Shown here: in pieces, positions 42,101 through 62,022 of the stretch
How the letters are laid out: every line of letters starts with the position of its first letter
Numbering within the stretch: the first letter of the stretch is position 1
Source of the DNA: Geomonas agri
GTDB lineage: Bacteria; Desulfobacterota; Desulfuromonadia; Geobacterales; Geobacteraceae
DNA: 64,000 nucleotides
Assembly (NCBI RefSeq): GCF_020179605.1
Contig: NZ_JAINZO010000002.1
Span: forward strand, 992,001 to 1,056,000
Direction of reading: 5' to 3'
Notes under the pieces: model-generated
The model's database searches: none
What the model was told of the DNA's origin: nothing
Seen by the model: only the letters and a program-made list of their open reading frames with translations
Position numbers and translations under genes: made by a program

Positions 42101-42935
42101 ACAACGCATCGAGCTCCTCCGGGTCCCGGGCCAGCAGGGCAGCGTACGCGGTCGATTCCCCGAGGTGGCAGAACTCCATGCGCCTCTGGATTCGGCGCGT
42201 GATGGTCGGCGGTTTGTACTTGGAGAAGTCGATGCTGTACTGGCTTTTCAACAAGGCGAAGATCTGCTGGTACTCGCCGTGGTACTGGTCGTCGGCCAGG
42301 TAGCCGTACAACGCCTGACGCCGTTCCTCCGGCGGGGTGCGGGCGTAGCGCACGATGGCCGCGGGCATCTCCTCGGGATCGAGCATCAGGTCGCAAAAAC
42401 CGGTGGCGATGGCGCTGCGGGGCATGCCGTCGAACTGCGCCGAGTCAACCGTCTGCACCAGCACGAGACCGCCGGCATCATGGATGTCGCGGACGCCGCG
42501 CGAGCCATCCGTGCCGGTGCCGGAAAGGATCACCGCGATGGCCTGTGGTCCCGCGTCGTCGGCCAGCGAGCGCAGGAACACGTCGATGGGGAGTTCGGAG
42601 TGCTGCGACGGCAGAAGCTCGGTGAGGTAGAGCTTGCCCTTGGAGACGGTCATGTGCGTTTTGGAGGGTATCAGGTAGATGGAGTTGCTGCGCAGGGCGA
42701 TGCCGTTGGTGACGCGGTGGATGGACATCTTGGTGTGGCGGGCCAAAAGATCGTCCATCAGGCTCTTGAAGTCGGGAGAAAGATGTTGGATCACGACGAA
42801 GGCCATGCCGCTGTTTACCGGCATGGTGTCGAAGAATTTTTCCAAAGCTGCCAGTCCGCCGGCAGACGCCCCGAGGCCGACCACGAAGGACGGCTTCGAC
42901 TTGGCCACGGACCTGCTGTTGGTTGTTTTTTTCAT
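39138..42935 (-). CDS. CheB-CheR-PAS-histidine kinase-receiver fusion protein
   Basis: 1265-residue cytoplasmic signalling protein. Order: CheB methylesterase (about 15-200; triad Ser24 in GASAGG, His51 in QHLSP, Asp143 in GTGTDG), with no N-terminal receiver; CheR methyltransferase (about 210-480; SAM site [13 protein letters not shown] and [19 protein letters not shown]); a PAS-like region and a long coiled coil (about 640-730, repeats of [13 protein letters not shown]); PAS domain about 735-860; HisKA with phospho-His in [16 protein letters not shown]; HATPase ([26 protein letters not shown]); and a C-terminal receiver (ILMDISMP). All catalytic residues look intact. The start chosen is ATG 42935, 7 nt after GGAGGG. 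Known members link receptor methylation to a His-Asp relay, controlling surface behaviour rather than flagellar bias. Targets cannot be told here. Confidence 0.93.
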
Positions 42936-43303
42936 GGCCATACCCTCCACTACTGAAAATCAAGCAAAGCCCAAAGAGGACCATTGAGATTCCGAAGGAT
43001 CAAGTAGCTGAAAGCCCATGATCAAGGTTGTATTCCCTTGAGATCGTTCTCCTTCTGTATGGGTTAAAGAAGACCCTTTAGCTCTTATTAGAGCGCGAGC
43101 CTCATGAATTGTCAATGGCAAGTGCGTCAGGAAAAACGCAGGGGATCATTCAGTTTTCAAGGCAGCCGGTGGGCATTGTTGATAAACCGGTGCGAGGACG
43201 TACGGTGATGCTTCCTGGGGTACATTCGCGTCCGGCTCGGGGACGTGCAACGACCCGGGCCGACATTGTTCGGTCGACAGTGTTTGTTCAGGTCTCAAGC
43301 TGC

Positions 43304-48111: not shown

Positions 48112-48226
48112 GAAACCTCCTTTTTGCGAAAAGCTTGGTTGTCCTTCCCGGCGGCAGACGCCTCCGGGACTCCTTTGGATGAGCGGGGACATCCCGCTTA
48201 CCGTGAACAACTCCGGGTGTGCGCAC

Positions 48227-48275
48227 AAAAAAAGCCGGGTTGCTTCGATATCGTGAGATATTTCGGCAACCCGGC
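48227..48275 (-). terminator. Riboswitch-controlled terminator in the cytochrome leader
   Basis: On the minus strand GCCGGGTTGC ... GCAACCCGGC (10-bp stem, 48266-48275 with 48234-48243) is followed by seven T. The upstream arm is also the 3' part of the GEMM-like aptamer, so aptamer folding and termination should exclude one another. Confidence 0.8.
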
Positions 48276-48332
48276 TGTCTCGGTGAGACCCTATAGGCTT
48301 TCCGCCCCATCCTCGCGGATGGTTTAGTATTA
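48264..48332 (-). promoter_or_regulatory. GEMM-I class cyclic dinucleotide riboswitch
   Basis: Read on the minus strand: AAACC, a P2 hairpin CCATCC-GCGA-GGATGG with a GNRA tetraloop, the joining segment GGCGGAAAGCC, a P3 hairpin GTCTC-ACC-GAGAC, then AGCCGGGTTGCCGA. This order and the GAAAGCC and GCCGGGTTGCCGA blocks match GEMM-I aptamers, which bind cyclic-di-GMP or, in Geobacter (GEMM-Ib), 3',3'-cGAMP. The base just before AAACC differs from the usual G or A region in my hand alignment and P1 looks weak, so ligand identity is open. It lies about 155 nt upstream of the nine-haem cytochrome and overlaps an intrinsic terminator, which predicts an ON switch. Confidence 0.78.
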
Positions 48333-48662
48333 TCGTCTATCTATTTTACGTGAGGCTGTGTGTGAAGCTCAGTCAGTGGCTGGGCTTCCGGCTTGCTCTC
48401 AGCTTGCCGTTGAACTGTCTCAGAAAAAAGTGACGGGAATGTAGCATGTTGCATTGCTTCAGTAAAGTATATTTTTATTTATATTTGACTATATCGCATT
48501 ATAAATTCCCAACAAAATTGTTTCCCGCGTTGCAACCTGCTGCTTTCATTTAAGCTCCCGCCGAAGGCGAACCCGCGACAGGACCCGTTGTCACTGATCG
48601 TCCTGTCCGGATGCCGGATGGGGCGGTTACTTCCCCCAGGGACCGCAAGAGAGGAGAGCGGC

Positions 48663-48771
48663 AAACGAAAAAGGCCCTTGGATTTCTCCAAGGGTCTTTT
48701 CAATAAATGGTCGGAATGAGAGGATTCGAACCTCCGCCCCCCTGCTCCCGAAGCAGGTGCGCTACATTCCG
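48663..48771 (-). repeat. Left direct repeat of the island (tRNA-Pro 3' region plus terminator, degenerate)
   Basis: 109-nt imperfect copy of 59148-59269. It contains the hairpin AAAAGGCCCTTGGA/TCCAAGGGTCTTTT (one mismatch relative to the right copy) and a 64-nt tRNA-like sequence. Similarity ends abruptly at ATTCCG on the right side and just before AAACGAAAAAGG on the left. Confidence 0.8.
48708..48771 (-). pseudogene. Degenerate tRNA-Pro copy lacking part of the D-arm
   Basis: Identical to the intact tRNA-Pro(CGG) at 59193-59269 except for one substitution in the variable/T-arm region and a 13-nt deletion between two GCGCTAC repeats (plus-strand sense), which removes most of the D-arm. Anticodon arm, T-arm and the encoded CCA remain. 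It is 64 nt long and unlikely to fold or work as a tRNA. Confidence 0.8.
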
Positions 48772-49401
48772 AAGAAATTATTTTTTAGCACTTGCGGTCA
48801 GTTTTGTTTCAAGTTGAAAGACGGGGCAGGGAACGGAGGGGGAACTAATGGGGACCAGATAAAGCACCAACCCGGATGGCACGTATCCTATCCCGTGACT
48901 GTAGCGTAGTCTACCACTCGACAAAACTATTAGAAATGTGTATATAATACCGCCTGACAGCCTCTTTGACATGCCACTTGTAGAGACCCTACCCAAAGAA
49001 CCAGTCTCAACTGCCTCTGCCGGACCGGTCAGTCATCTCCACATCCTTGGCTTGAGCTCATGGTCATAGACAATGATTGTCATCAAAGCAGTAATCATGC
49101 AATTAAACCTTCCAATGCGGAAGGTTACCAAAAACTGGGGTGGTTTAACAATGACGAGGCCATGGCCAAACAGCTCTACATAGCTTTGATGAGCATCTTG
49201 AAGAAATGAACCATGTCAATCAAGGATTGAAAATCGACACTTCAGGCAATTCAATATCATGTTTAAAGTAAGGCTACAGAACATCTGAATTCAAAATCAT
49301 TTACACAAATACTTAACAGGCCCCTGTTTTATAGTTACACATAGCTTATCCAAGCTATTCTAGCAGGCTGGTATCGTTATTGTATTAACGTGAGGATATT
49401 C

Positions 49402-51186
49402 ATGACAGTACAAAATGGAATAATCAAAACCCCTAAAAATGCTAACAATTTACAGTTAATATTATCACGTTCATGGCCCATAATCATAATCCTTCTTGCT
49501 GCTACGCAATGCATCTACACAGGGTGGGGGCGCTGGGGTGATTTGATTGTCGATACCGGCCGGGAATTGGAATGGCCAAGACGGATATTACAAGGTGAGA
49601 GCCTATATTCGGACCTGCGGTTCAACTATGGCCCCTTCAGCCCCTATTTCAATGCACTTTTGTACCGGCTATTCGGTGTTAAACTTGAGGTTCTTGCCGG
49701 TGCCGGCGCCACATCGGCTCTGATTGCTGGGTTCACTTTGTATGCCTTAGGCCGGCGCTTTATTTCCAGACTTGGTGCAACAATCGTTGTTCTTTCCTTT
49801 TTCTATCTTTGTGCGTTTTCCCATTATTTACAGCGCGGAATATTCAATTGGGTCCTTCCACATACTTTTGCTGCAACCTATGGCATGCTCGCCGCCTTGC
49901 TCTCTCTATATTTTCTGGTTCGACATGCTCAGGATGGGAAATATACAGATCAGGTGGTTGCCGTTTTTTTTGTCGGCTTGTCAGCACTTTGCAAGGTTGA
50001 AGCTTTTTTCCCGGCCTTGGTTGCCTATGGCGTGTGGATATTGGCTACGGATTCTATTTCACGCCGAAGAGCAGTCCCAGTGGCTTTTTGTTTTTTCATG
50101 TTAGTTGCAGCAGTATATGGATTCTTCTCCATCCGTGTTGGATTTCCCCTTTGGCGAGACAATCTTGCAGGTGTAGCGAACCCCGGCTCTGATTACTTTA
50201 TCAAGTTTATGATGGGATTTCAGGATAGTTACGGGAACCTGCTTTACTTACTATATGGTATTTGTTATCTTGCATCGGCTATTGTGCTAGGTGTTGGAAC
50301 TGCAACAATAGTTAAACGTGATAATATTAATCCTTATCTTAAGTCAGTGTGCATCATGCTGGTTTTTATCTTGGTCGCTGCAGTTCCTAATTTTGTTCTG
50401 AGTGAACCTGACTTATTATATCAAACAACTCCAGTAATTTCAGTAGCCGTTTTGTTGTTTTTATTTTATAAATATATCAGGCAATCTGCTGAGCGCAGTA
50501 AAGTTCTCCCAGATATTCTAGTTTGGATTTTTGCACTGGCCAGTATTCCGAGAATAATTTTTCAGGTCACCCCGCAATTCTATGGATACTACATGCTGCC
50601 ACCGGCAATTTTGGGGCTTGGAATTTTTCTCTATAGCTACATGCCACGTCTGTTCAAGGATCTGTGGGGGTACGGGGCGATGGTTGCTATTGGAACAGCA
50701 CTCCTTTCAGGAACGATGATAGGTACCTACTTGGTTTCACTCGAACGTATGGCCAAAAAAACGGTGGCCCTCACGTCACCTAGAGGAGAGATGTGGCTAA
50801 CTCCAACTGTTGCTGAAATGTTCATCCCATTGATGGAGAAGATAAAAACCTTCCCACGTGACACAAAGTTACTAATAATACCTGAGGCATCTGCGATAAA
50901 TTTTCTGGTCGAACGCCAGGGTGTCGACGGGATGTTCAGTCATCTACCTATGGACTACTACGGGGGCTTCACAGATGAAGCGGTCTTGGTGCGCTACAAA
51001 ATGTCACCGCCCGAACTTATCTTGTTCTATGACTCTTACATGCCGCATTTTGGTGATGCAAGGTATGGAGTGACGTATGGCAGGAAGGTATACAGATGGA
51101 TAATTCAGAATTATATACCGATAACGGATCTTAGAGAAGACGCCGTCTTGCTGATACCAAAAGCAAAAGTTGCGGGGAGGCAGTGA
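49402..51186 (+). CDS. Polytopic membrane glycosyltransferase-like protein (GT-C fold)
   Basis: 594-residue inner-membrane protein with about 11-12 hydrophobic segments and a soluble C-terminal part (about 470-594). The first outer loop has the GT-C layout DLIVDTGRELEWPRRILQG then YSDLRFNYGPFSPYFNALLY, in which an acidic residue acts as base on a polyprenyl-phosphate sugar donor. Distant relatives include the dolichyl- or undecaprenyl-phosphate mannosyl and arabinosyl transferases (GT39/ArnT). Start ATG 49402 follows GAGG; a GTG 12 nt upstream is the alternative. Codon use is AT-rich. Its stop overlaps the next start by 4 nt (GTGA), so the genes are translationally coupled. The acceptor is unknown. 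Confidence 0.75.
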   Translation: MTVQNGIIKTPKNANNLQLILSRSWPIIIILLAATQCIYTGWGRWGDLIVDTGRELEWPRRILQGESLYSDLRFNYGPFSPYFNALLYRLFGVKLEVLAGAGATSALIAGFTLYALGRRFISRLGATIVVLSFFYLCAFSHYLQRGIFNWVLPHTFAATYGMLAALLSLYFLVRHAQDGKYTDQVVAVFFVGLSALCKVEAFFPALVAYGVWILATDSISRRRAVPVAFCFFMLVAAVYGFFSIRVGFPLWRDNLAGVANPGSDYFIKFMMGFQDSYGNLLYLLYGICYLASAIVLGVGTATIVKRDNINPYLKSVCIMLVFILVAAVPNFVLSEPDLLYQTTPVISVAVLLFLFYKYIRQSAERSKVLPDILVWIFALASIPRIIFQVTPQFYGYYMLPPAILGLGIFLYSYMPRLFKDLWGYGAMVAIGTALLSGTMIGTYLVSLERMAKKTVALTSPRGEMWLTPTVAEMFIPLMEKIKTFPRDTKLLIIPEASAINFLVERQGVDGMFSHLPMDYYGGFTDEAVLVRYKMSPPELILFYDSYMPHFGDARYGVTYGRKVYRWIIQNYIPITDLREDAVLLIPKAKVAGRQ

Positions 51187-52679
51187 TTGTGTTTGCTACA
51201 CTTTTCAATAATATAATTTACAGGTTAAAGAACGAGGCACCAGCTCGCTATGCTCTCTTGACGATCAGCATACTAGCGGTAATTGTTCGGTTCTATGGAA
51301 TTTCTCGGAGGAGCATCTGGTTTGATGAAGGGGTAACCATAGGGGTTGTGCGGCTCCCTCTGATGGATCATCTGCGTCATGCATGTGATATTTGCTTGAA
51401 CAATCAGATGCTTTATTATTTCCTGCTGAAGCCATGGCACTACTTTTTGGGAGATACAGAAATAGCCTTCCGAGGTTTTTCTGCTATGGTTTCAGTAGCC
51501 GGAATAGTTATTATATTTCTGTTAGGAAAGCAACTTTTTGGCGCTAAAGCTGGGCTTATTGCGGCATTAATTCTAGCCTTTCATCCAGCCTCAATCAGGT
51601 ACGCGCAAGAAGCACGAAGCTATAGTCTTGCTATCTTTTTAATCTTGCTTTCATCGTTTTATCTGGCAAGGGTCATTGATGGAGGAAGTCGTGGTGACAT
51701 GATTGCCTGGATAATATTCACAGCCTCTTCATTTTATTCACATTTCTTTGCTGGACTAATTTTTGAGGTTCAACTTATTGCAATCCTATCCTTAGGACTT
51801 ACAGAATTAAAAAAACGCAAGGGTTTAATGTTGGCAACTTCAGCCATTGTGCTTCTGGCTCTGCCTGTAATATTTTTTATGATTCGTGAACCAAAATCAA
51901 CCTTGTTATGGATTGCCCCAATAAGCATCAGTAGAGTCTTCGAACTTGCTGTATTTCTTGCTGGGGGGTCTAAGTGGCTGTTGGGCATATTTTCTTTTGT
52001 CATTTTATATCTTGCAATCATTCTCATAAAATCAAATAAAAAAGATTATTTGCCGGTCCTACTAGTGCTATTATGGACAATCCTACCTCTTACAACGATG
52101 GCTCTTGTTTCATTAAAACAGCCGATTCTCATAGAAAGATATGTCTTATTTACGGTACCGGGGTTGGCCTTGGCAGTGGGCTTTGTATTTGGAATGATTT
52201 TGAATCAAACTTCGAAAATTTGTACTGCCTCAATCATTTTAATTCTTATGCTTATTTTATCAATTGACATATATGAAATACACTTGCTAAACAAATTACC
52301 TTATCCAGCAGGTAACGCTGATTGGAAAAAGGCGGCTACCGAGGTCTCAATGGCAACTTTATCCGGGGATGGCATAATTTATAACCAGTCTTGGAGCGGA
52401 CTCACTTTTGAATATTATTTCGATCGCTTACCCCAAAGACCCAAAATGCTTCAAACAGACATATTATTTAATGATGCATTCAATTTGAAAAGTATTTCGG
52501 AGTTAGATCGTGTATGGCTTGTTGAGTTCGCAGAAGTTCATGATTTAAGTGTAAATATATCCAATATACTAACCCAAAACCATCCCTTTGTAAGTTGGAA
52601 GGAATATAATGGAGTGTTGAGAGTGATACTATTCGACTCAAAACAACGATTTCACGGTGATGGCTCATTTGGAAACTAA
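51183..52679 (+). CDS. GT39-like polytopic glycosyltransferase
   Basis: 498-residue membrane protein. Residues 40-60 carry RRSIWFDEGVTIG, the DE motif of GT-C enzymes, and about 130-150 reads HPASIRYAQEARSYSL, a hallmark of the PMT/GT39-like family. About ten more hydrophobic helices follow and a short soluble C-terminus (from about 390). It would transfer a sugar from a lipid-phosphate carrier to a periplasmic acceptor (protein or glycan). Start GTG 51183 overlaps the previous stop by 4 nt. It is probably in one operon with the preceding gene and the two that follow. AT-rich codons mark it as part of the island. Confidence 0.82.
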   Translation: MIVFATLFNNIIYRLKNEAPARYALLTISILAVIVRFYGISRRSIWFDEGVTIGVVRLPLMDHLRHACDICLNNQMLYYFLLKPWHYFLGDTEIAFRGFSAMVSVAGIVIIFLLGKQLFGAKAGLIAALILAFHPASIRYAQEARSYSLAIFLILLSSFYLARVIDGGSRGDMIAWIIFTASSFYSHFFAGLIFEVQLIAILSLGLTELKKRKGLMLATSAIVLLALPVIFFMIREPKSTLLWIAPISISRVFELAVFLAGGSKWLLGIFSFVILYLAIILIKSNKKDYLPVLLVLLWTILPLTTMALVSLKQPILIERYVLFTVPGLALAVGFVFGMILNQTSKICTASIILILMLILSIDIYEIHLLNKLPYPAGNADWKKAATEVSMATLSGDGIIYNQSWSGLTFEYYFDRLPQRPKMLQTDILFNDAFNLKSISELDRVWLVEFAEVHDLSVNISNILTQNHPFVSWKEYNGVLRVILFDSKQRFHGDGSFGN

Positions 52680-52735
52680 TATATTGCACAGTTTGTATAG
52701 TTGATACTACTTAAGATACGGAAGCAGGCAATCAA

Positions 52736-54139
52736 TTGAGATTTGAAAAAAAAAATATTATTATAGTGTTATTTGTTGTGGGCTCACTGCTTCGCATCCT
52801 TCTGTGCAGCTCAAGCCCGACCGGCAATGCGTTCGACAACCATTACACCCCAATATCCATTATCATGGAGACAGGTGAAATTGCGGCAAAAGATGCATGC
52901 CCACAATGTTATCATCCGCCGGTATTTTACCTGGTCTCTGCAGTAATCGGGAAAATTGTCCTTGGGACTGGGTTGGACGTAAGATATGTTATGAAACTGA
53001 TCCAGTTTTCTTGTTGTTTATACGGGATCTTGACGTTGTACGTAATATATCTGATCCTGTCGAAGATGAACATTTCGGATTTTTCACGGGCCATCGCATT
53101 TGGAACTGTCTGTTTTCTGCCGCGGCACATATATATGTCGGCAATGAACTCAAATGACGCCATCAGTTATCTTTTCGTTTCCTTGTGTGTATATCTGATG
53201 TTGCTCCTGCTAGAAACCAATTTAAAATACAAATATCAAGTGATGCTGAGCGTAGCGGTAATCGTTGCTGTTTTTATCAAATACACCTGCTATATATTGC
53301 TGCCTGCCTTTGCAGTATTATCTTTACTTCTTCTGAAGTCAAAAGAGTTTCCCAGAAAAAAATTGATAAGCTTTGCTCTTTTATCATACGGATTGCCCGC
53401 ATTGCTTCTCTGTGGCTACTCTTTATACAATTACAATACGTACGGGACGTTTCTTCCGGACAATGTTGCCGCTGCAAGTATTTTAAAACAACCTCAGGAC
53501 CCAGGAGGTGTTAATTTCTTTACTTTCAAGCCTTGGCTCAGTATTCAGAATCCATTTCTGGCGCCTGGTAAATTGGGCTCATTCTGGACGCTTATATACA
53601 GCAGTACATGGTATGATATCGATGCAATGTTCATTCGTTTTTTCGACAACAAAGAATCTCTCTGGGAGCCTTATTACGACTGGCTTAAAGGATATGTTGC
53701 TTTTCCTGACCCCAGACTGATAGTACCTCATTATGCAAGTAACATGGGGGCGGTACTTGTGACTTTGGGACTGATGCCATTATGTTTTACGGTCCTCGGT
53801 TTCTTTATTGCTGTGAAGAACAGCTTTTACAGCTATACAAAAAAAAATGAGCAATCTCTATCAGAATGGTATAAAACACCTCTATTTATTATGTTGGCAC
53901 TGTTCAATATTGCTCTCATAGTCGCTTTCACAGTGAAAAGGCCCTTCTACAGTAGCATAAAGTCATCCTATATTCTTAATGCTTTGCCTGCGTATGCTAT
54001 TTTCCTGAGCTTTGGCATCATGAGTTTACGAAAATTCTTAGACAATAAATATATAGCCATATTTTTTGGCTCGATATTCATATTTGTAATTATACACATA
54101 AATTACATTGTTTACCACATTGGCATATTCAACTACTGA
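52736..54139 (+). CDS. Third polytopic GT-C-type membrane protein
   Basis: 467-residue membrane protein with about ten hydrophobic helices. Near the start are DNHYTPISIIMETGEIA and CPQCYHPPVFYLVSAVIGKIV; the HPP-FY pattern after an acidic loop is common in GT-C glycosyltransferases of the GT83/GT39-like group. The CPQC pair in the first outer loop is unusual. The start is unclear: the TTG at 52736 is the first codon of the frame and no strong ribosome binding site is seen (GGAAG 52719-52723 is nearest). It lies 56 nt after the second glycosyltransferase and 92 nt before the GT2 gene. The substrate is unknown. Confidence 0.7.
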   Translation: MRFEKKNIIIVLFVVGSLLRILLCSSSPTGNAFDNHYTPISIIMETGEIAAKDACPQCYHPPVFYLVSAVIGKIVLGTGLDVRYVMKLIQFSCCLYGILTLYVIYLILSKMNISDFSRAIAFGTVCFLPRHIYMSAMNSNDAISYLFVSLCVYLMLLLLETNLKYKYQVMLSVAVIVAVFIKYTCYILLPAFAVLSLLLLKSKEFPRKKLISFALLSYGLPALLLCGYSLYNYNTYGTFLPDNVAAASILKQPQDPGGVNFFTFKPWLSIQNPFLAPGKLGSFWTLIYSSTWYDIDAMFIRFFDNKESLWEPYYDWLKGYVAFPDPRLIVPHYASNMGAVLVTLGLMPLCFTVLGFFIAVKNSFYSYTKKNEQSLSEWYKTPLFIMLALFNIALIVAFTVKRPFYSSIKSSYILNALPAYAIFLSFGIMSLRKFLDNKYIAIFFGSIFIFVIIHINYIVYHIGIFNY

Positions 54140-54231
54140 TTTATACTGTTAAATAAATTTAGCTATTACGAGTTGCTGACTATATCAATACGTCCAAAAT
54201 AATATATTTTAGCTCAGAAGGAATTAAATTA

Positions 54232-54915
54232 ATGAAATTATCTGTTGTTATCCCAATTTATAACGAAAAATCCACTATCAAGGAAATTTATGAGTGCGTT
54301 AAAGCCGTAGAGATCGACAAGGAAATAATATTGGTGGACGACTATTCAACTGATGGAACTCGTGAGATACTTTCTAGTTTTGTTGATGATGCAACTAAAG
54401 TTGTCATGCATGATAAAAATATGGGAAAAGGAGCCGCTTTGAGAACGGGCTTTCAACACGCAACAGGTGATATGGTAATTGTTCAAGATGCCGATCTTGA
54501 GTATGACCCTAGCCAATACCCGAAATTAATTCAGCCAATTCTGGATGGTAAGGCCGATGTCGTTTATGGTTCTCGTTTTGTGTCAGGCGATTACCGCAGA
54601 GTCCTTTACTTTTGGCATATGGTCGGGAACTCGTTTTTGACACTTGTTTCCAATATGTTTACCAACCTAAATTTAACAGATATGGAAACCTGTTATAAAG
54701 TTTTTAGAAGAGAAGTATTGGATAAGATTACTATTGAGGAAAACCGTTTTGGTTTCGAACCCGAGATAACGGCGAAGATTTCAAAATTGGATTTGAGGAT
54801 TTACGAAATTGGGATTTCATACTCGGGCAGGACTTACAAAGAAGGAAAGAAAATTGGCTGGAAGGATGGTTTTTCCGCTCTTAGATGCATATTGAAATAT
54901 AACGTTTTATCATAA
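54232..54915 (+). CDS. GT2 polyprenyl-phosphate sugar synthase (DPM1-like)
   Basis: 227-residue cytoplasmic family 2 glycosyltransferase. Visible: [16 protein letters not shown] (nucleotide-binding start), [29 protein letters not shown] and the DXD-type QDADLEYDP, then [10 protein letters not shown] and the acceptor-side [15 protein letters not shown]. This is the dolichyl-/undecaprenyl-phosphate mannose or glucose synthase type, without the extra membrane helices of GtrB. It would charge undecaprenyl phosphate with a sugar for the three GT-C enzymes encoded upstream. ATG 54232 follows AGAAGGAAT. A terminator follows about 100 nt later and ends the cluster. Confidence 0.88.
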
Positions 54916-55013
54916 TTAAAATAAATGTATAATTAAATCAATAAATACGACTTATTAACTTCACAATTAGTATCTGTAAAGTATTTTTGTAAATAATAGA
55001 TTTACCACTCAAG

Positions 55014-55046
55014 CCCCTTTGGCCATCCAGCCACTGGGGTTTTTTT
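55014..55046 (+). terminator. Terminator of the glycosyltransferase cluster
   Basis: CCCCTTTGGC ... GCCACTGGGG stem with a 3-nt internal mismatch, then seven T. It lies 100 nt past the GT2 stop. Confidence 0.75.
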
Positions 55047-55081
55047 GTCTAATCCAAACTTGAAAGAGGTGAACCCGCTTC

Positions 55082-55228
55082 TGGAAGTTGTTCAAGGCCC
55101 TGCGCCGTACAGGTCACAGATGGAACCACAAGCGCGTCTACCGGGTCTACTGCGATCTTTGTGATTCACCCACGGCCACCGGTAGGTGCTTCCGGGCACT
55201 CTTTAATATTCATCGACGAGTACAATAA
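55082..55228 (+). pseudogene. IS3-family transposase (OrfB) remnant
   Basis: In frame from 55082 the translation [14 protein letters not shown] then [12 protein letters not shown] matches the N-terminal helix-turn-helix region of IS3-family OrfB transposases (the [10 protein letters not shown] block is diagnostic). After this about 25-residue match the similarity ends, and the frame runs to a stop at 55226-55228. No catalytic DDE part and no inverted repeats are seen, so it is a short, dead remnant. It is GC-richer than the neighbouring glycosyltransferase genes. Confidence 0.7.
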
Positions 55229-55522
55229 CAGAAAAGGGGTGGTGGAATCTTTCCCCACCCCTTTCAAATAAAGTATTAATCGGAGAAGCGCAATGAGTGA
55301 CGGCTAAAAAAATATTCCGAGTGGCTTTCGAAAGCGGCGGACATCGAGCCGTTCAAATATCGCTACATCAGAAATCCGGCTTGCAGCAGACAACTACAAT
55401 AGCAGCGTTAAAATCGACGTCTGCATAATAAATGAACCGGATGCCATAACTCGAGTGAAGGAATTGACCATTGCTCAAACTATCCGTAATGCGATTGAGC
55501 GAAAGCTGCTAAAAACTGTCGG

Positions 55523-55618
55523 CTGCAAGCTAACCAGCGCTATGCGCATTTGTCGGACGCGGGGCTCAAGAAGGCGACCGAAAGCGTCTCCGCACTGCTG
55601 GACCAAGCGGTAGCATGA
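55523..55618 (+). pseudogene. C-terminal remnant of a tyrosine recombinase (integrase)
   Basis: The frame reads LQANQRYAHLSDAGLKKATE and ends SALLDQAVA plus stop at 55618. RYAHLS is the C-terminal block of phage-type integrases that holds the catalytic Tyr. Upstream of 55523 the frame quickly loses similarity, and no catalytic Arg/His boxes were found, so only the last about 30 codons survive. It is plausibly the former integrase of the tRNA-Pro island. Confidence 0.65.
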
Positions 55619-55623
55619 GATTT

Positions 55624-55656
55624 CCCCCGGCCCCGGAAACGGGCCGGGGGCTTTCC
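55624..55656 (+). terminator. Terminator-like hairpin after the integrase remnant
   Basis: Ten-bp stem CCCCCGGCCC/GGGCCGGGGG with a 7-nt loop followed by CTTTCC, six bases after the integrase stop. It supports the view that 55280-55660 is the true 3' end of an old, GC-rich gene. Confidence 0.6.
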
Positions 55657-55698
55657 TGCGAGAGCAATAAAAAATCAATCGAAAGGAGGAGGGCGAAT

Positions 55699-55890
55699 AT
55701 GCCGTATGTTTACGATCGAAAGATGCTAGAGGACGCGAAGAGTGGGGGGGGCACGTGGTGGCCGAGGCGGGACCCAGTGACACGGAGGTCGTAGCAGAAG
55801 ACGGCGCGACCGTCCTGCTGGACGAGAGAAGAACAGCGGTTCCCGCACCGTACACCTTAACGCGAAGAGTAAAGCCGTCTTGGAAAAGTT
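55699..55890 (+). pseudogene. Small gene broken at a G run
   Basis: ATG 55699 follows AAAGGAGGAGGG, an excellent ribosome binding site, but the frame stops after 31 codons. A shift at the eight-G run near 55744 would join MPYVYDRKMLEDAKSGGG to HVVAEAGPSDTEVVAEDG and continue to a stop near 55890, about 64 residues. The product is not recognised. The rest of 55890-56065 shows no supported gene. Confidence 0.4.
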
Positions 55891-56065
55891 AGGCCGGGGG
55901 CATCGTGAAAATCGCGTATATGGGTGCAGGGTTCTCCTCTGGAAAAGGGAAGCATTAGGTATGAAGGTAGAGGGGCTGTGGTTTCTACGATCTCCTGGAT
56001 AGAGTTTACCTGAGCTGTATAGAATGATTGACTGTTGCACAGAGGGGCAGTATAGTGTTTGCTAA

Positions 56066-56512
56066 TTGGTATATACTTACGTGCTATTTTTCAAACTACT
56101 TAAAGCATATCTGATGCTAGGTGCAATTTCAGCCTTTATCACTGTGCCTCATAGAAATGGCCGTTTTGATTTTAAAGAGTTTAAGGCTCATTATTTGTTC
56201 TGGCCTTTTTTTCTGCTGATCAAACTTGGAGATGCAATATATAAAATAAAATCTGTGTCATCACCGCCTGTCCCACCTGCGTCGCCTACAAAGGCCACCC
56301 AATGCACCCCAGTTGCACCTTCTGCCGAATTATTAGAAACCGTCAGAACTTCCTCTTTGGAGTCGCAATCAATGTCGGATGGTTTAGAACCGGTCTGTCC
56401 TAAATGTGAGCGGAAGATGATGCGCAGGACTGGGCGATACGTGCAGTTCTGGGGATGCTCAAATTATCCTCGCTGTCGGGGAACTCGTGACATACTCAAG
56501 ACTGAGGTGTAA
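56066..56512 (+). CDS. Membrane-anchored protein with topoisomerase-type C4 zinc finger
   Basis: About 148-residue protein. The N-terminal third has hydrophobic stretches (AYLMLGAISAF, LFWPFFLLIKLGDAI), a Pro/Ser/Thr linker (about 70-105), and at the C-terminus CPKCERKMMRRTGRY with CSNYPRCRG, the four-Cys zinc ribbon found at the end of topoisomerase I and in small nuclease or accessory proteins. The start is uncertain: TTG 56066 or GTG 56081, neither with a good ribosome binding site. The stop is followed 2 nt later by another small gene, so they are coupled. It could act on DNA near the membrane; no function is assigned. Island cargo, AT-rich. Confidence 0.6.
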   Translation: MVYTYVLFFKLLKAYLMLGAISAFITVPHRNGRFDFKEFKAHYLFWPFFLLIKLGDAIYKIKSVSSPPVPPASPTKATQCTPVAPSAELLETVRTSSLESQSMSDGLEPVCPKCERKMMRRTGRYVQFWGCSNYPRCRGTRDILKTEV

Positions 56513-56514
56513 CT

Positions 56515-56703
56515 ATGGTTCTCGGTATCTTACTATTTGCGTTCGGTGCTTATCTTGTTGTGGTTGCACAACAAGATGCACAAAAGAAGGGCAGAAGTAC
56601 CCTGAGTAATATTCTTCTCTTCGGAGGAATCGCTGTTTTAGTTATCTGGTGGAAGTTGGTCACCTTACCAGGGAGTGAAAGCAAGCATATATTGCCCTTT
56701 TAA
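56515..56703 (+). CDS. Small two-helix membrane protein
   Basis: 62-residue protein with two hydrophobic segments (LGILLFAFGAYLVVVAQ and ILLFGGIAVLVIWW) joined by a short polar loop (QDAQKKGRSTLSN). ATG 56515 lies 2 nt after the zinc-ribbon gene stop, which suggests translational coupling. No family is recognised. The following 270 nt (56704-56973) hold no supported gene, although the minus strand from about 56840 to 56722 reads FIHPNEPWIGSEFRKALASE, perhaps the tail of a lost GC-rich gene. Confidence 0.55.
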   Translation: MVLGILLFAFGAYLVVVAQQDAQKKGRSTLSNILLFGGIAVLVIWWKLVTLPGSESKHILPF

Positions 56704-56973
56704 ATGACTGCGTTCTTTTATGAAAAAACGGCACCGTCAGCACCTGCATCCTCGGGAGGAAGCTTTAATGCGCTTCCCTCTTCTTCGCTGGCCAGTGCTT
56801 TGCGGAACTCGCTCCCGATCCACGGCTCGTTGGGGTGAATAAAGTTTTGCAAAAGACTACTCTGTTAATTGAAAGATTGACGGCTGCTCAGGGGAGTTAG
56901 TATAGTTCTGGTTAATTGGGCATGGTTTATGTAGTGTGTCTGGTGAACTGTGCTTATCCTGTGAGGAGGGACT

Positions 56974-57261
56974 ATGGGATTTTTGTCTGGGCTGTTTCCG
57001 TCTCAAGCTGAAAAAAATTTCAAAAAGGGCTATAGCAAAGAATTCCACGAAGGCAACTGCATTCAAGCCGCACATTATTACCAGTATGCTTCATACCAGC
57101 AGCATCCCGAGGCCACCTATAGACTCGCTTTGCTTTACATGAATGGCGCAGGAGTTACTCAGAATTACAAAATGGCGCTTGCTTTAGCTAAGGATGCAAT
57201 AAAATTGGGTTACTTGGGAGCAAATAGGATAATTTCTGAACTGGAGAAACAAGTAAGGTAA
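56974..57261 (+). CDS. Small Sel1-like repeat protein
   Basis: 95 residues with an excellent ribosome binding site (GAGGAGGG). Residues about 28-75 form a Sel1/TPR-like helix pair: AAHYYQYASYQQHPEATYRL, LALLYMNGAGVTQNYKMALA; the MNGAGV-QNY element is the Sel1 repeat signature. One to two repeats only. No signal peptide; the start MGFLSGLFPSQ is a short amphipathic helix. Sel1 proteins mediate protein contacts. It is part of the small-gene section of the island, 32 nt before another small gene with a similar N-terminus (MGFLKNM). Confidence 0.65.
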   Translation: MGFLSGLFPSQAEKNFKKGYSKEFHEGNCIQAAHYYQYASYQQHPEATYRLALLYMNGAGVTQNYKMALALAKDAIKLGYLGANRIISELEKQVR

Positions 57262-57293
57262 CTGCAATTGTTGTCAAACGCAAGAGGTGCTAA

Positions 57294-57671
57294 ATGGGTT
57301 TTTTGAAAAATATGACCATAAAATCCACCGCTAAGAGTTTGATAAATGGTGTGTATCAAGAGCTAATTAAAGCAAATATTGGTCTGTCTTACTGTTATGA
57401 AGATTACACTTTGCCCATATTTCTAGAAAGAAGGTATAAAAGAATTTTTGGCGAAGAACCTGAAGAACAAGAGGTAAATGAAAATTTTAAACGCAGAGCA
57501 TTTTACTTGCTTTGTAAGATGGTTATGGTGAAAACATTTGAAGAATTATCTTTTAACAACACAGTTGGGTCTATTCAGGACCAAAAGCTTGTTATCGAAA
57601 CGGTAGCAAGTCATTGGCCGTTATTTCGGACAGTAAAAGCAGATCTTATCAAATTAGAATCACGCTTATAG
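57294..57671 (+). CDS. Hypothetical protein (island cargo)
   Basis: 125 residues, start ATG 57294 behind AGAGGT. Charged, probably helical, without signal peptide or membrane segment (LPIFLERRYKRIFGEEPEEQ, NENFKRRAFYLLCKMVMV). AT-rich codons as in the rest of the island. Its N-terminus MGFLKNM resembles those of the Sel1-like gene before it and the broken gene at 58077. I recognise no family. Confidence 0.5.
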   Translation: MGFLKNMTIKSTAKSLINGVYQELIKANIGLSYCYEDYTLPIFLERRYKRIFGEEPEEQEVNENFKRRAFYLLCKMVMVKTFEELSFNNTVGSIQDQKLVIETVASHWPLFRTVKADLIKLESRL

Positions 57672-57706
57672 TATACAACTGATTGTATCGGGCGTCAGGA
57701 GGCTGC

Positions 57707-57956
57707 ATGCCGGGCAATGAAGAAAATAAAAATCTTCTTGAAGCAGAAATAAAAAAACAGTTCACCGAAAACAATTCTGATATAGCTGTTTTTTTATAAT
57801 TGTGTATCATTGGCCATCCCTAATATAGATAACCTTAACAGTCTTGCAATTACAACTGTAGATTGGAAGAAATTGACTGAATGGGCGGCAGCACGCGGGT
57901 GGAAAGTTTCATCACCCCCTGAACCTTACCATTCAATAATTTTTTCCGTTTTGTAA
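57707..57956 (+). pseudogene. Short frameshifted small gene
   Basis: ATG 57707 with AGGAGG at a good distance starts a 30-codon frame (MPGNEENKNLLEAEIKKQF) that ends just after a run of seven T. In another frame, from about 57812 to 57956, an open stretch reads NIDNLNSLAITTVDWKKLTE then WAAARGWKVSSPPEP. Together they could be one gene of about 80 residues broken at the T run. Not recognised. Confidence 0.4.
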
Positions 57957-58076
57957 CTATACATCCTGGAATGGACTAAGATGTTTCTTAATATTTGTCC
58001 TTATCTACTCGCTACTAGGCTGCAGTGGTTGCAGTGCAAATCAATGTTTCGGCAGTGATATTTTAAGGGAGAGTTT

Positions 58077-58658
58077 ATGGGCTTGCTGAGCAAGTTGTTT
58101 GGTGGTAGTAACCCACCAGAAGTAACTATACAAACCATATCTGATTTTATTTTCGACTTAGCGCATTGATCCATTTCAGAAGAGAATCTAAAAGATGACA
58201 AAGTAGAATCGAGAATTCTCGATGCAAATATTATTAATTTTGAAATGAGAATTTTGTTTTTGTTTATTCATGTGATGGGTCGTCATCTGCATGAACTCCC
58301 TGTCCATTGTAGGAAACAAGTTTGGTCTGAAGTGTCAAACATTACCATAGCTAATAAAGTAAAAGCCTATGAAAAACTAATCGAAAAAAAATACAATACT
58401 ACGATTGATACTGAAGCAATGTTTGAAAGATCAATTGAAGAATTCAATAAGGTTGGCGTAAATTATAGAAATTGTGCAAGGATAGCAGATGGCCCATATT
58501 TAATGGCTCCTGGATCCGTTGTAGGTGAGCTGATTGAAGCCATAAGAAAGTGGATAAGTCTTAGTCCCGCGAATACAATACCTCTTGCTGTCAGACTGAC
58601 GACACAGTGTATGGAGTTATCCAAAACGATCACAGCTTTATTCACTGAAACTAAATAG
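58077..58658 (+). pseudogene. Hypothetical gene interrupted by an in-frame TGA
   Basis: ATG 58077 follows AAGGGAGAG and opens MGLLSKLFGGSNPPEV; the frame meets one TGA at 58167-58169 (after DLAH), then continues without any other stop through EENLKDDKVESRI to the end at 58658, giving 193 codons in total. Only the part after 58245 (137 residues from an internal ATG) would be translated as a separate protein. Most likely a nonsense mutation (TGG to TGA). Selenocysteine is possible but no matching hairpin was found. The protein is helical with a hydrophobic segment ILFLFIHVMG; no family recognised. Confidence 0.6.
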
Positions 58659-59152
58659 CATCAAGCACTATGGGGGGAGGAGTCACAATTAAAGGCCCAG
58701 CAGTTCACAGGGATGAATGGGATAAGTAGTCGGAATCGACTAGCAGGACGGTGGATATCGATGTCTTACCGCAGTCGGGAGTTAAAACGGGTACAAAAAA
58801 ATCTAGATGATTGATGGGGAGCGAGGACGAACAAGGGGATCGTCCAGGATCTTCCTGTGCTCGGGTGGACAAGGCGGGGCTAGTCCTAACGATGCTGACG
58901 GAAATCGCCCAGTCCTGGGAGGTCGAGCCAAGTGTCTACATGGGGTGAGCCTGGTGGATTGGCCGGGCACAGCTGGGTAGTGGGGTAAACCTTCGTCTGG
59001 GATGGGGTTAGGTGCCTCCTCGTGTGCCCCGGCTGCGAGACGACGGGGTAGGGAGCTGTGGTGTCGAGGAGAGCGGTCCGGAGGCAGGCGAAACTCTCTA
59101 ATAGGTGCAAGGAGAATTCTTCGCGGACCGGAAGAGGACCGGAACTGAAACG

Positions 59153-59186
59153 AAAAAGGCCCTTGGATTTCTCCAAGGGCCTTTTC
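59153..59186 (-). terminator. Terminator of tRNA-Pro
   Basis: Perfect 14-bp stem AAAAGGCCCTTGGA/TCCAAGGGCCTTTT with a 4-nt loop; on the minus strand it lies about 8 nt after the tRNA 3' end and runs into TTTTTCG. Confidence 0.88.
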
Positions 59187-59192
59187 AATTAA

Positions 59193-59269
59193 TGGTCGGA
59201 ATGAGAGGATTCGAACCTCCGACCCCCTGCTCCCGAAGCAGGTGCGCTACCAGGCTGCGCTACATTCCG
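59193..59269 (-). tRNA. tRNA-Pro (anticodon CGG)
   Basis: 77-nt tRNA gene including the encoded CCA. Acceptor stem CGGAATG/CATTCCG, D-arm with GCGCAGCCTGGTAGCGC, anticodon arm CCTGC-TTCGGGA-GCAGG (anticodon CGG), T-arm GGAGGTTCGAATCCTC. It matches the bacterial proline tRNA pattern. It is the intact copy at the right edge of the AT-rich island, with the 3' end facing the island as expected for an integration site. Confidence 0.93.
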
Positions 59270-59415: not shown

Positions 59416-62022
59416 CTATTTAATTTTCACCCGGTAATCGAGTCTGAAACTGCCGCCAGACCGGATGTTGCCGGCCATGGGAATGCGCCAGTTGGTGATG
59501 TTACCGTCGTAGCCTGCAGGCGCACCGCCTGCACCGGATGCCGGAACATAGCTCCAGCTGGCGCCCTTATCGTTCGAATACTGCGGGGTGCCGAGAGCGA
59601 GACCGGAGGCGGGGGCACTGTCGGTGAAGGAGAATGGTGCGCCTCCACCGAGGAAGAAGGAGGAGTAGGGGCCCATGTCGTCGGTGAGCACGATGTTGCT
59701 TCCGGGCCCCCCGCCGGTATTGACCAGTTCCACGGTATAGACCACGTCCTGACCGGGATCAGCGCTGCTGCGGCTGGCGGATTTTAGGATCGAGATGAGC
59801 GGCATGGCACCCACGGTTACGCTCGCACTGGCACTGGTGCCGGTCAGGCTGGCGGGGCCAGTGGCCAGGGGGAACGCGGTGGTGTTGGTCAGGGTTCCGT
59901 AAGCGGAACTGGTTACGTTGAGGCTGACCTGGCAGCTTGACCCCGGGGCAATGGAGGCTGCCGTGAAGCGGACGGCGCTGTCGCCGGCGGCGGAGGCTGC
60001 ACCGGAGGTTTGGGTCACGTTGCCGCAGCCGGCCGGGGAGAAATTGAAGCTCGTATTGCGCAGCACCATCCCGGCTGGGAAGCTGTCGATGACGCTGACT
60101 CCGGTCAGGGGCGCGACGTTGGCAGCGGGATTGGCGAGGATCAGCGAAAGGTTTACCGGTGCGCCCACAGCAACGGTGGCAGCGCCGAATGACTTGGCCG
60201 CTGTAGGAGGGGTGAAGACGTTCAGGGTTGCGGTGGCGCTGCTGGTGTCCAGCCCGCCGCCCTGGGCGCTGAACCTGGTGGCGTCGTTAAGATAGGAAGC
60301 TGCTGCGTCGCCCCTGACGGTGGCGCTGAAGCTGCAGCCGGCGCTCCCCGACGTGATGGTGCCGGAGGCGAGCGAAACACTCGATGCGGTGTACGAGGTG
60401 GTGCCGATGCAGCCGGTGCCGGAGACGGGACCGACACCCGTGACGGTAAGTCCGCCAGGGAAGGTGTCGGTGAAGGCAAGTCCCGACTGGGCGGGCTTCG
60501 TGATCGGTTCGTTGACGATGCTGAAGTTCAAGGTGCTGCTGCCGCCGACGGCTATGTTGCCGATGCCGTAACTCTTGCTGAGGGTCGGGCGCGGCAGATT
60601 GGTAAAGGTGCAGGTCAGCTCGTCTCCTGCGGCAGGCGCGAGTGTGTAGCTTGATGCCCGCAGCGCGTTGGGAAGGAGTGCGCCCGTCGTAGCTCCGGGA
60701 CCCGCATAGGCGTTGCTGCAGGTGAGGTTTCCAGCGTACTTCGTGGCCGGCGTGCTCCCGGCGCTCATGATGTCGGTAAGAGTCAGGGGCTGGTTAGGGG
60801 CGCAGTTAAAGACCGTACTGGCCGAACTTTGAGTACCGGAAGTGGTGGCGGAGGCGGTGCCGAATATGGTGCCGCTTGCGCTAACCGTGAACTGGTCCCC
60901 GGCATTAATCCTCACCGGCAGGTTTTTCACCAAGGTCACCCGTGGCCGCTTGGTGTTGGTGATGGTGCAGGCCGCGGCGGAGTTACTGGTATTGAGCGTG
61001 GCGCTCATGCTGCGCTGCGCCGGAGCGGTGCTGAGGGCGGGGGAACCGGTCACGGGGAGGCAACTGATAGCTGCGGTCGGGTCCCAGTCTCCCCCGGCGG
61101 CTGTTTCGGTGATGGTCAGGGTCTGGTCGGCGGCCACGGCGTTTATGAACACCCGGGCAGTTTCGTTGTCCCTGAGGGTAAAACTGACACTGTTTCCTGC
61201 CACGGCGATGGAGGCCGGGGTGTAGGTGCCACCCGTGGCGGAGGTTGCGGTCAGGGTGGCGCCGGTGAGTACAACGACCTTGGAGCCGGCGGGCCCCGTA
61301 GCCGTGAAGGTGAATGGCTGGGTATTCCCGTCAGGGAGCGTCTGCTTGGTCACGTCGACGAAGGCGCCGGTTAGGACGCTGACATTTCCAGCGACGGTGG
61401 CAATGCCGGCGTTGCACTTGGAGGGGGAGCCGTTACTGACATCGCCCGGACCGGAACAGACGTTCCCGGGGTTTTGCCAGTAGGTGACGACGTAGGGTAT
61501 CTTGAGGGCGCCGGTGCTGTCGCCGCTGCAGAGGACCTTTATTTCGTCGACGGTGGTGGTGAAGTTCGCCCCGCCCTTGAAGTCGCCGCAGCCATCACCG
61601 TCCAAGTTGAGCCATGGACTGGGACTGGTAGGAAAGGTGGCGACGGAGCAAATGTTGCCTGGCGTGGTGTCACGCGGGTCATTCCCCTGCTGCCCAACGA
61701 AGAAGCCGACGTCGTAACGGTCGGTGTTGGTGCCAGAGAGGCCGAGTTCAACCTTGAAACGGAAGTCACTCCCCATGATGCAAAAGGGGGCGGTGCCGGC
61801 TTGAGCGGTAAACACCGGCGCTATGGTGAATTCACCCGCCGTACAGTTAAGACCGCCGGTGCGGTACCCTACACAGGTTTGGTCCTGCCAGGCGTTGGTG
61901 GTGAGCGCCGGCGAAGGGGACGGAACGGCGAGCAGGGCAAGAAGTGCTGCCGTCGCCATCCCGAGCCCATGCCGGTGCGCTTTCTTCACGATCGATGATG
62001 TCCTGAGGTTGCCCTTCTGCAT
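59416..62022 (-). CDS. Large secreted repeat-domain (DUF11-like) protein
   Basis: 868-residue exported protein. ATG 62022 follows AGGAGA; the signal peptide lies around residues 15-40 (ALLALLAVPSPSPALT). The N-terminal part has paired cysteines (DQTCVGYRTGGLNC, NVCSGPGDVSNGSPSKC). A prealbumin-like module (VDVTKQTLPDGNTQPFTFT) and several beta-sandwich repeats follow, of the kind seen in bacterial surface proteins (PTLSKSYGIGNIAVGGSSTL, TAAKSFGAATVAVGAPVNLS, SILKSASRSSADPGQDVVYT, the last being a typical DUF11 start), ending in a strand RLDYRVKIK. It is 68 nt downstream of a beta-barrel gene on the same strand, which may export or anchor it. Function probably structural or adhesive. Confidence 0.75.
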   Translation of the reverse strand: MQKGNLRTSSIVKKAHRHGLGMATAALLALLAVPSPSPALTTNAWQDQTCVGYRTGGLNCTAGEFTIAPVFTAQAGTAPFCIMGSDFRFKVELGLSGTNTDRYDVGFFVGQQGNDPRDTTPGNICSVATFPTSPSPWLNLDGDGCGDFKGGANFTTTVDEIKVLCSGDSTGALKIPYVVTYWQNPGNVCSGPGDVSNGSPSKCNAGIATVAGNVSVLTGAFVDVTKQTLPDGNTQPFTFTATGPAGSKVVVLTGATLTATSATGGTYTPASIAVAGNSVSFTLRDNETARVFINAVAADQTLTITETAAGGDWDPTAAISCLPVTGSPALSTAPAQRSMSATLNTSNSAAACTITNTKRPRVTLVKNLPVRINAGDQFTVSASGTIFGTASATTSGTQSSASTVFNCAPNQPLTLTDIMSAGSTPATKYAGNLTCSNAYAGPGATTGALLPNALRASSYTLAPAAGDELTCTFTNLPRPTLSKSYGIGNIAVGGSSTLNFSIVNEPITKPAQSGLAFTDTFPGGLTVTGVGPVSGTGCIGTTSYTASSVSLASGTITSGSAGCSFSATVRGDAAASYLNDATRFSAQGGGLDTSSATATLNVFTPPTAAKSFGAATVAVGAPVNLSLILANPAANVAPLTGVSVIDSFPAGMVLRNTSFNFSPAGCGNVTQTSGAASAAGDSAVRFTAASIAPGSSCQVSLNVTSSAYGTLTNTTAFPLATGPASLTGTSASASVTVGAMPLISILKSASRSSADPGQDVVYTVELVNTGGGPGSNIVLTDDMGPYSSFFLGGGAPFSFTDSAPASGLALGTPQYSNDKGASWSYVPASGAGGAPAGYDGNITNWRIPMAGNIRSGGSFRLDYRVKIK

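Follow-up and report, generated by a model that had tools for sequence, protein, structure and literature searches.

The window analysed here, a stretch of 64,000 nucleotides (nt) of the Geomonas agri genome G000 (4.7 Mb, 7 contigs), contains a low-GC island enclosed between two copies of tRNA-Pro(CGG) and its terminator. Its main cargo is a GT2 synthase together with GT-C-like transferases, two or three in number, that, by analogy, probably modify surface glycan or surface proteins. A single intact tRNA-Pro(CGG) gene was identified in the window by ARAGORN at 59193-59269 on the minus strand (Rfam 66.3 bits), with its 3′ end directed towards the island, followed by an intrinsic terminator at 59153-59186 (minus strand; terminator scan). 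About 10.4 kb away, on the 3′ side of the intact tRNA and in the same orientation, lies a displaced copy, the two forming a direct repeat of 103 nt with 97% identity (48663-48765 and 59148-59250). A preliminary description of this DNA had reported both the imperfect repeat of tRNA-Pro plus terminator at the two ends and the intact gene at the right, and our analysis agrees with it on these points; inspected by eye, the left copy runs past the aligned repeat to 48771.

The displaced tRNA (48708-48771, minus strand; Rfam and inspection) retains the acceptor stem and the anticodon and T arms and lacks 13 nt of the D arm, and its own terminator is located at 48675-48694 (minus strand; repeat alignment and scan). 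The Rfam tRNA model matched it at 48711-48771 with 49.9 bits (gathering threshold 29), the D-arm positions being absent, and ARAGORN made no tRNA call on it. The extension to 48771 consists of the tRNA 5′ strand CGGAAT, followed in the left copy by GTAGCGCACC, while the intact gene reads CGGAAT-GTAGCGCA-GCCTG-GTAGCGCA-CC; exactly one unit of 13 nt, with the repeated GTAGCGCA at its end, is missing from the left copy. As the loss is bounded by GTAGCGCA repeats, it has the pattern expected from slippage, and we infer that slippage removed these 13 nt from a tRNA that was originally whole. Upstream of the intact gene, a TTGACA-17-TTATAT arrangement was recognized by eye only, and the promoter scan listed no site there. 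Between 48500 and 49500 the scan gave four sites against 1.9 in shuffled sequences (sd 1.1); two were on the strand of the left copy, the closer of which stops 173 nt before the copy's 5′ end, and no clear promoter for that copy was found among them.

Base composition changes sharply at the island. In 1-kb windows from 49001 to 59000 the GC content was 0.33-0.52, compared with 0.65-0.67 in the adjacent 45-48 kb and 0.60-0.66 in 59-64 kb, and outside these regions the 64 kb had its lowest values at 0.54-0.55. Likewise, GC at third codon positions was 0.29-0.44 in eight island frames against 0.85 and 0.77 in two flanking genes. The drop in composition first noticed from the sequence is therefore present in GC content and codon usage alike, and the island has the anomalous composition expected of a tRNA-integrated genomic island.

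The locus was compared among relatives, whose labels we took to stand for Geomonas anaerohicana (G001, Red421), G. azotofigens (G002), G. diazotrophica (G005), G. edaphica (G006) and G. oryzae (G009), among others. The tRNA-Pro query matched in all 19 genus genomes, and ARAGORN found one tRNA-Pro(CGG) per stretch in the 18 stretches fetched. On the upstream side of the tRNA, compared in all 18 congeners, kilobase-scale matches to the window were found in seven (G001, G002, G005, G006, G007, G009 and G010), a partial match in G015, and matches of at most 75 nt in the remainder, whereas the DNA downstream of the tRNA is variable. The order of the backbone and of the cytochrome block left of the island was compared in 10 congeners. 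In G001, the backbone (window 39142-43146) stops 144 nt from the tRNA, both the cytochrome block and the island being absent between them. G002 and G010 share the window's order of backbone and cytochrome block, after which 1.8 and 6.65 kb of other DNA, respectively, precede the tRNA, and homology to the window ends at 48513 in both. The order differs in G005, where the distance to the tRNA is 2.3 kb for the end of the backbone and 17 kb for the cytochrome. None of eight island proteins matched the fetched genus stretches, and two cargo proteins, one of them the product of the 58170-58658 frame, had no relative in 47 other genomes of the family. Since the downstream DNA differs and the cargo is absent from relatives, the locus is variable and the island private to G000 within this sample. 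The insertion proposed in the preliminary description is thus supported, as the gene order with both tRNA copies is not conserved in relatives; its suggested comparison with an empty site gave absence (G001) or replacement (G002, G010) at the same locus, though not an exact empty site.

Besides the window's own, 21 further displaced tRNA-Pro/terminator fragments were found in the genus. The scan covered stretches chosen from the tRNA-query matches and dropped alignments scoring below 60, so that terminator-only pieces, such as the one at 365547 in G001, fall outside the 21. In 8 of the 18 congeners (G006-G009 and G014-G017), fragments are found downstream of the intact tRNA at distances of up to about 22 kb. 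Nine of the 21 are on other contigs or separated from the intact tRNA by hundreds of kilobases, and some of these cases may reflect contig breaks. Alignment starts fell at tRNA nt 8-16 in six, nt 21-33 in 11 and nt 43-67 in four, those of G007 and G008 coinciding with the first anticodon-loop base (nt 33). No fragment aligned to tRNA nt 1; as a gapped 5′ end escapes such an alignment, as it does for the window copy, the 21 were also inspected by eye. The earlier remark that the attachment layout is unusual therefore stands, the displaced copy of the window being a near-whole tRNA with an internal loss, which fits the end fragment expected for tRNA-integrated islands only ambiguously. If the CGGAAT match were a coincidence, the left copy would be an ordinary 3′ fragment beginning at nt 20, where the same ungapped alignment places it, close to the starts of the 11 fragments at nt 21-33, and the island itself would be read as before. 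We consider this highly improbable, given a chance of about 2e-4 from the local base composition (about 0.5% over 22 copies) and a gap of exactly one 13-nt unit between the GTAGCGCA repeats.

Integrase genes accompany several of these fragments. Open integrase frames adjoin the displaced fragment in G007, G008 and G015, that of G007 containing Arm-DNA-bind_3 and Phage_integrase domains. Another integrase type, 88% identical between G013 and G004, starts at a distance from the tRNA of about 2.3 kb in the former and 0.9 kb in the latter, and pieces of it are found 1.4-2.5 kb from the tRNA in G017. These integrase genes and displaced 3′ fragments at the same tRNA argue against a tandem duplication of the tRNA between whose copies foreign DNA was later gathered by transposons or homologous recombination, with no integrase involved, as does the absence of the intact gene's upstream leader at the left copy. 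Such a history would account for the tRNA 5′ strand in the left copy, which a crossover in the anticodon arm need not duplicate, and for the transposase remnant inside the island; on balance we hold it to be very unlikely. Stray fragments were also seen away from the locus: another contig of the window's genome has two further tRNA-Pro/terminator fragments separated by about 120 nt (locus L064; G000:C1:913355-913414 and 913536-913642), similar strays are present in G006, G007, G008 and G012, and pieces of this tRNA and terminator occur in another genus of the family (G024:C4:197072-197173 and 198922-199000).

Direct repeats with a period of 10-13 were detected just past the tRNA terminator at p<0.05 in 8 of 19 loci, compared with 5 of 228 control windows; one of the eight, the G017 locus, owes its signal to a simple repeat of TCCTC, leaving seven clean loci, and 11 of the 19 did not reach this level. 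The units were CGTGCAACCTCT in G007, CGTTCTTCCTCT in G008, TGTCACCT in G015, CTCCGGTCC in G002, G010 and G016, and TTCCGGTCC in the window. In G007, G008 and G015, the tRNA-side units recur no more than 200 nt from the distal fragment, with four matches each within 350 nt. G007 has three exact direct copies plus an inverted one with one mismatch (0.23 expected), and G008 has three copies with one mismatch, one of them inverted, plus one with three mismatches (0.20 expected). The four matches of G015 (0.81 expected) comprise a neighbouring pair, with one and two mismatches, and two strays, only the pair standing together at the expected place. Integrase-specific repeats are thus present at both ends of two elements and, more weakly, of a third. 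Arm-type sites of tyrosine integrases have this layout of repeats at both ends, and from their sequence arrangement the recurring repeats may bind the integrase.

The tRNA-side end of the window carries a repeat of another class than those of G007, G008 and G015, namely a pair of CCGGTCC sites at 59136-59142 and 59125-59131 (both on the minus strand; +50 and +61 past the tRNA), the former a putative arm-type integrase site. Pairs of CCGGTCC-like sites spaced by 9-13 nt, in most cases close to +50/+61, were found at 9 of the 19 intact tRNAs and 6 of the 22 displaced copies, related and hence non-independent loci, against 8 of 3040 controls from both strands of the same stretches (5 of 1810 at a GC content of at least 0.6).

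Within the island, remnants of a transposase and, less certainly, of a tyrosine recombinase were examined. The short transposase remnant (55073-55228, plus strand) matched HTH_21 with E 1e-4 and 22.9 bits, below the cut-off of 28.1, and from this domain we presumed it to be IS3-like; its DNA is 86-90% identical over 66-80 nt to two places in G002 and one in G005. A possible C-terminal recombinase remnant (55499-55618, plus strand) was 50% identical over 24 amino acids to the G013 integrase (E 0.48; profile E 4.8). A possible core remnant (55823-55996, plus strand) was 41% identical over 59 amino acids to the integrase of G004, which is found with CCGGTCC-type repeats (E 0.003 without composition correction; profile E 0.62). 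Pfam gave no recombinase match in either, and a profile of seven congener integrases found nothing below E 0.5 in the six-frame translation of the island. Of the remnants that had been announced, that of an IS3 transposase is therefore supported, though short and below the cut-off, and that of a tyrosine recombinase is weak, its matches being only suggestive; with such remnants the island is at best a decayed member of the tRNA-integrated islands.

These findings are best explained by a decayed genomic island that was inserted site-specifically at tRNA-Pro(CGG) by a tyrosine integrase, since lost, within an accretion hotspot, a reading to which we assign a probability of roughly 0.86 and which draws on the duplicated tRNA and terminator, the foreign composition, the absence from the searched relatives, and the fragments and integrases of congeners. 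In the proposed mechanism, recombination by the integrase between the attachment site of the element (attP) and the host tRNA would have taken place in the anticodon arm or close to it. A new tRNA 3′ part and a terminator, and probably also the arm-type sites of the CCGGTCC pair, would have come with the element, so that the tRNA at 59193-59269 is intact, as a restored target. The old 3′ part with its terminator would have been pushed about 10.4 kb away, to 48663-48771. Elements with differing integrases and cargo would have inserted repeatedly at this tRNA in Geomonas. The window island likely arrived through an integrase of the CCGGTCC class, and we infer both this class and the integrase route itself from the repeats and fragments described above.

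Several observations weigh against this explanation. The island has no integrase gene, and no relative was found in which the cytochrome block joins the tRNA directly. The 150 nt that precede the left copy (48513-48662) were unmatched in the 18 congeners, which leaves the pre-insertion junction unseen, and about 110 nt adjoining the tRNA are common to G002, G005 and G010, so that the tRNA-side end may be ancestral rather than borne by the element. The left copy extends to the tRNA 5′ end, which the other 21 displaced copies do not. CCGGTCC sites showed no enrichment on the island side of 11 congener fragments (0-2 against 0.66-1.62 expected), a set that includes G004 and G013 and in which not all need be ends of the CCGGTCC class, and at the left end of the window three matches of this type were found against 0.71 expected, none of them exact.

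The island could instead be a cis-mobilizable element with usable attachment sites at both ends, movable by an integrase of the same class encoded elsewhere. The two tRNA/terminator copies, the CCGGTCC pair at the right end and the lack of a recombinase gene accord with this idea, and Dehalococcoides ssrA islands without integration modules have been proposed as cis-mobilizable elements (PMC3146451). Since the left copy is altered by its 13-nt loss and followed by only one CCGGTCC-like site, and several frames within 55-58 kb appear broken by eye, we regard it as rather unlikely. In a bolder proposal, attP would have carried the whole tRNA body and terminator without a promoter, and elements at this hotspot would exchange pieces of the tRNA, along with terminators, as portable end modules in which integrase-specific arm repeats keep a fixed spacing. 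In its boldest form, the left tRNA-Pro, with its defective D arm, would still be transcribed and processed. We rate this as distinctly unlikely.

As a decayed tRNA-linked island, the element is an ordinary kind of object, its oddity being the near-whole displaced tRNA. In the Islander study (PMC4383910), anticodon-centred sites form the larger class (2083 of 3919). Like the islands described there, that of the window has an intact tRNA gene and a same-orientation displaced copy on its 3′ side, within the range of 2-200 kb. In contrast to them, it has no integrase gene, on which ground the integrase filter of Islander would reject it, and its displaced copy keeps the tRNA 5′ strand with part of the D arm gone instead of being a plain 3′ fragment. 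With the Dehalococcoides ssrA islands, 15 of 31 of which lack an integration module, it has in common low-GC cargo stacked downstream of one RNA gene and displaced 3′ repeats; those islands involve a serine recombinase, the tmRNA gene and a 20-bp repeat (PMC3146451). In Geomonas, by comparison, the recombinases are tyrosine integrases, the target is tRNA-Pro, and the repeat, terminator included, measures about 100 nt. No literature on genomic islands of Geomonas was found among open-licence papers. The tRNA-Pro(CGG) gene emerges as an accretion hotspot in this genus, with several integrase types, one anticodon-arm site and fragments bearing type-specific repeats, and the repeats beside displaced fragments make the insertion history of one locus readable. 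The integrase-type-specific repeats beside the tRNA are themselves a useful by-product.

Regarding the cargo, four collinear genes (49390-54915) make up the glycosylation module. The first (49390-51186, plus strand) encodes a GT-C-like transferase of 598 amino acids with 10 transmembrane-like segments, counted here and below by simple hydropathy, and a PMT_2 match just under the cut-off (E 4.5e-5, 24.2 bits against 26.1). Its D55 was invariant across seven aligned sequences, one of seven homologues having dropped out. The second (51183-52679, plus strand; 498 amino acids) passed the PMT_2 cut-off with E 3e-8 and matched the NCBIfam mannosyltransferase model NF052499 with E 2e-17, well below the cut-off of that model, and it had no match among PDB sequences. 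The third (52736-54139, plus strand) encodes a polytopic membrane protein of 467 amino acids, possibly a third GT-C, with 11 transmembrane-like segments and no match in Pfam or NCBIfam; its single-sequence AlphaFold model had a pLDDT of 43 and was unusable. The fourth (54232-54915, plus strand) encodes a DPM1/GtrB-like GT2 polyprenyl-phosphate sugar synthase of 227 amino acids (Glycos_transf_2, E 1.5e-37; PHROG GtrB-like, E 2.4e-34), whose residues 1-215 share the GT2 domain of dolichol-phosphate mannose synthase (PDB 5mlz, E 1.5e-21). The GT2 sugar-lipid synthase of the preliminary description is thereby confirmed, while only one of its three GT-C transferases reached a family cut-off; the layout is confirmed, and the labels of three GT-C transferases and of a recombinase remnant are less certain than first stated. 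The synthase would, by analogy, charge polyprenyl phosphate with a sugar, and the GT-C enzymes would hand this sugar to acceptors outside the cell.

Gtr cassettes of serotype-converting phages consist of the GtrA flippase, the GtrB synthase and a specific transferase. The window module resembles them in that its GtrB-like synthase is accompanied by polytopic, transferase-like proteins and that the island carrying them is apparently mobile, and differs in that its GT2 lacks transmembrane-like segments, that two or three transferases are present, and that no GtrA-like protein was found by Pfam or PHROGs among the frames scanned. Neither search revealed conjugation or virion genes among the eight island proteins, as would be expected of an integrative and conjugative element or a prophage, and defence models gave no match on four of them. 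In the phylum sample, distant relatives of the first transferase were found in 7 of 394 other genomes (E 1e-15; 23-28% identity) and of the second in 6 of 394 (E 1e-20; 28-33%). Around the seven relatives of the first, on contigs that were in part short, the sole other island protein was one GT2 with 29% identity near one of them. A search of GTDB contigs for this transferase returned 12 pattern matches, none of which was confirmed.

Other frames of the island, all on the plus strand, encode a zinc-ribbon protein of the topoisomerase C4 type (56066-56512; PF01396, E 6e-12), a Sel1-repeat protein of 95 amino acids (56974-57261; PF08238, E 2.5e-7), an uncharacterised protein of 125 amino acids (57294-57671; open reading frame) with nothing above the cut-off in Pfam or NCBIfam and nothing in defence models or PHROGs, and an uncharacterised product of 137 amino acids from the ATG at 58245 (58170-58658, from the list of open reading frames; 162 amino acids in the open frame). 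At the same tRNA in G007, a 9-kb element (L043:4090-13024) is a defence island in which a KAP NTPase (PDC-S20), a ThsB-like TIR protein and AbiD lie beside the integrase; the cargo at this hotspot includes a probable surface-glycosylation module in the window and phage-defence genes in G007.

The flanks of the island hold further variable genes. To the left, a multiheme cytochrome with Ig/TIG domains (45127-48228, minus strand) had matches of 87-94% near the same tRNA in G002, G005 and G010 and one of 72% on another contig in G016, with weak or no matches in the rest of the 18 congeners. Just upstream of it lies a c-di-GMP-I-GGC riboswitch-like element (48261-48337, minus strand; 47.3 bits, below the gathering threshold of 59), a class that can sense cGAMP in Geobacter. 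To the right of the tRNA, a surface protein with DUF7933, SpaA and DUF11 domains (59416-62022, minus strand) is retained in only part of the genus.

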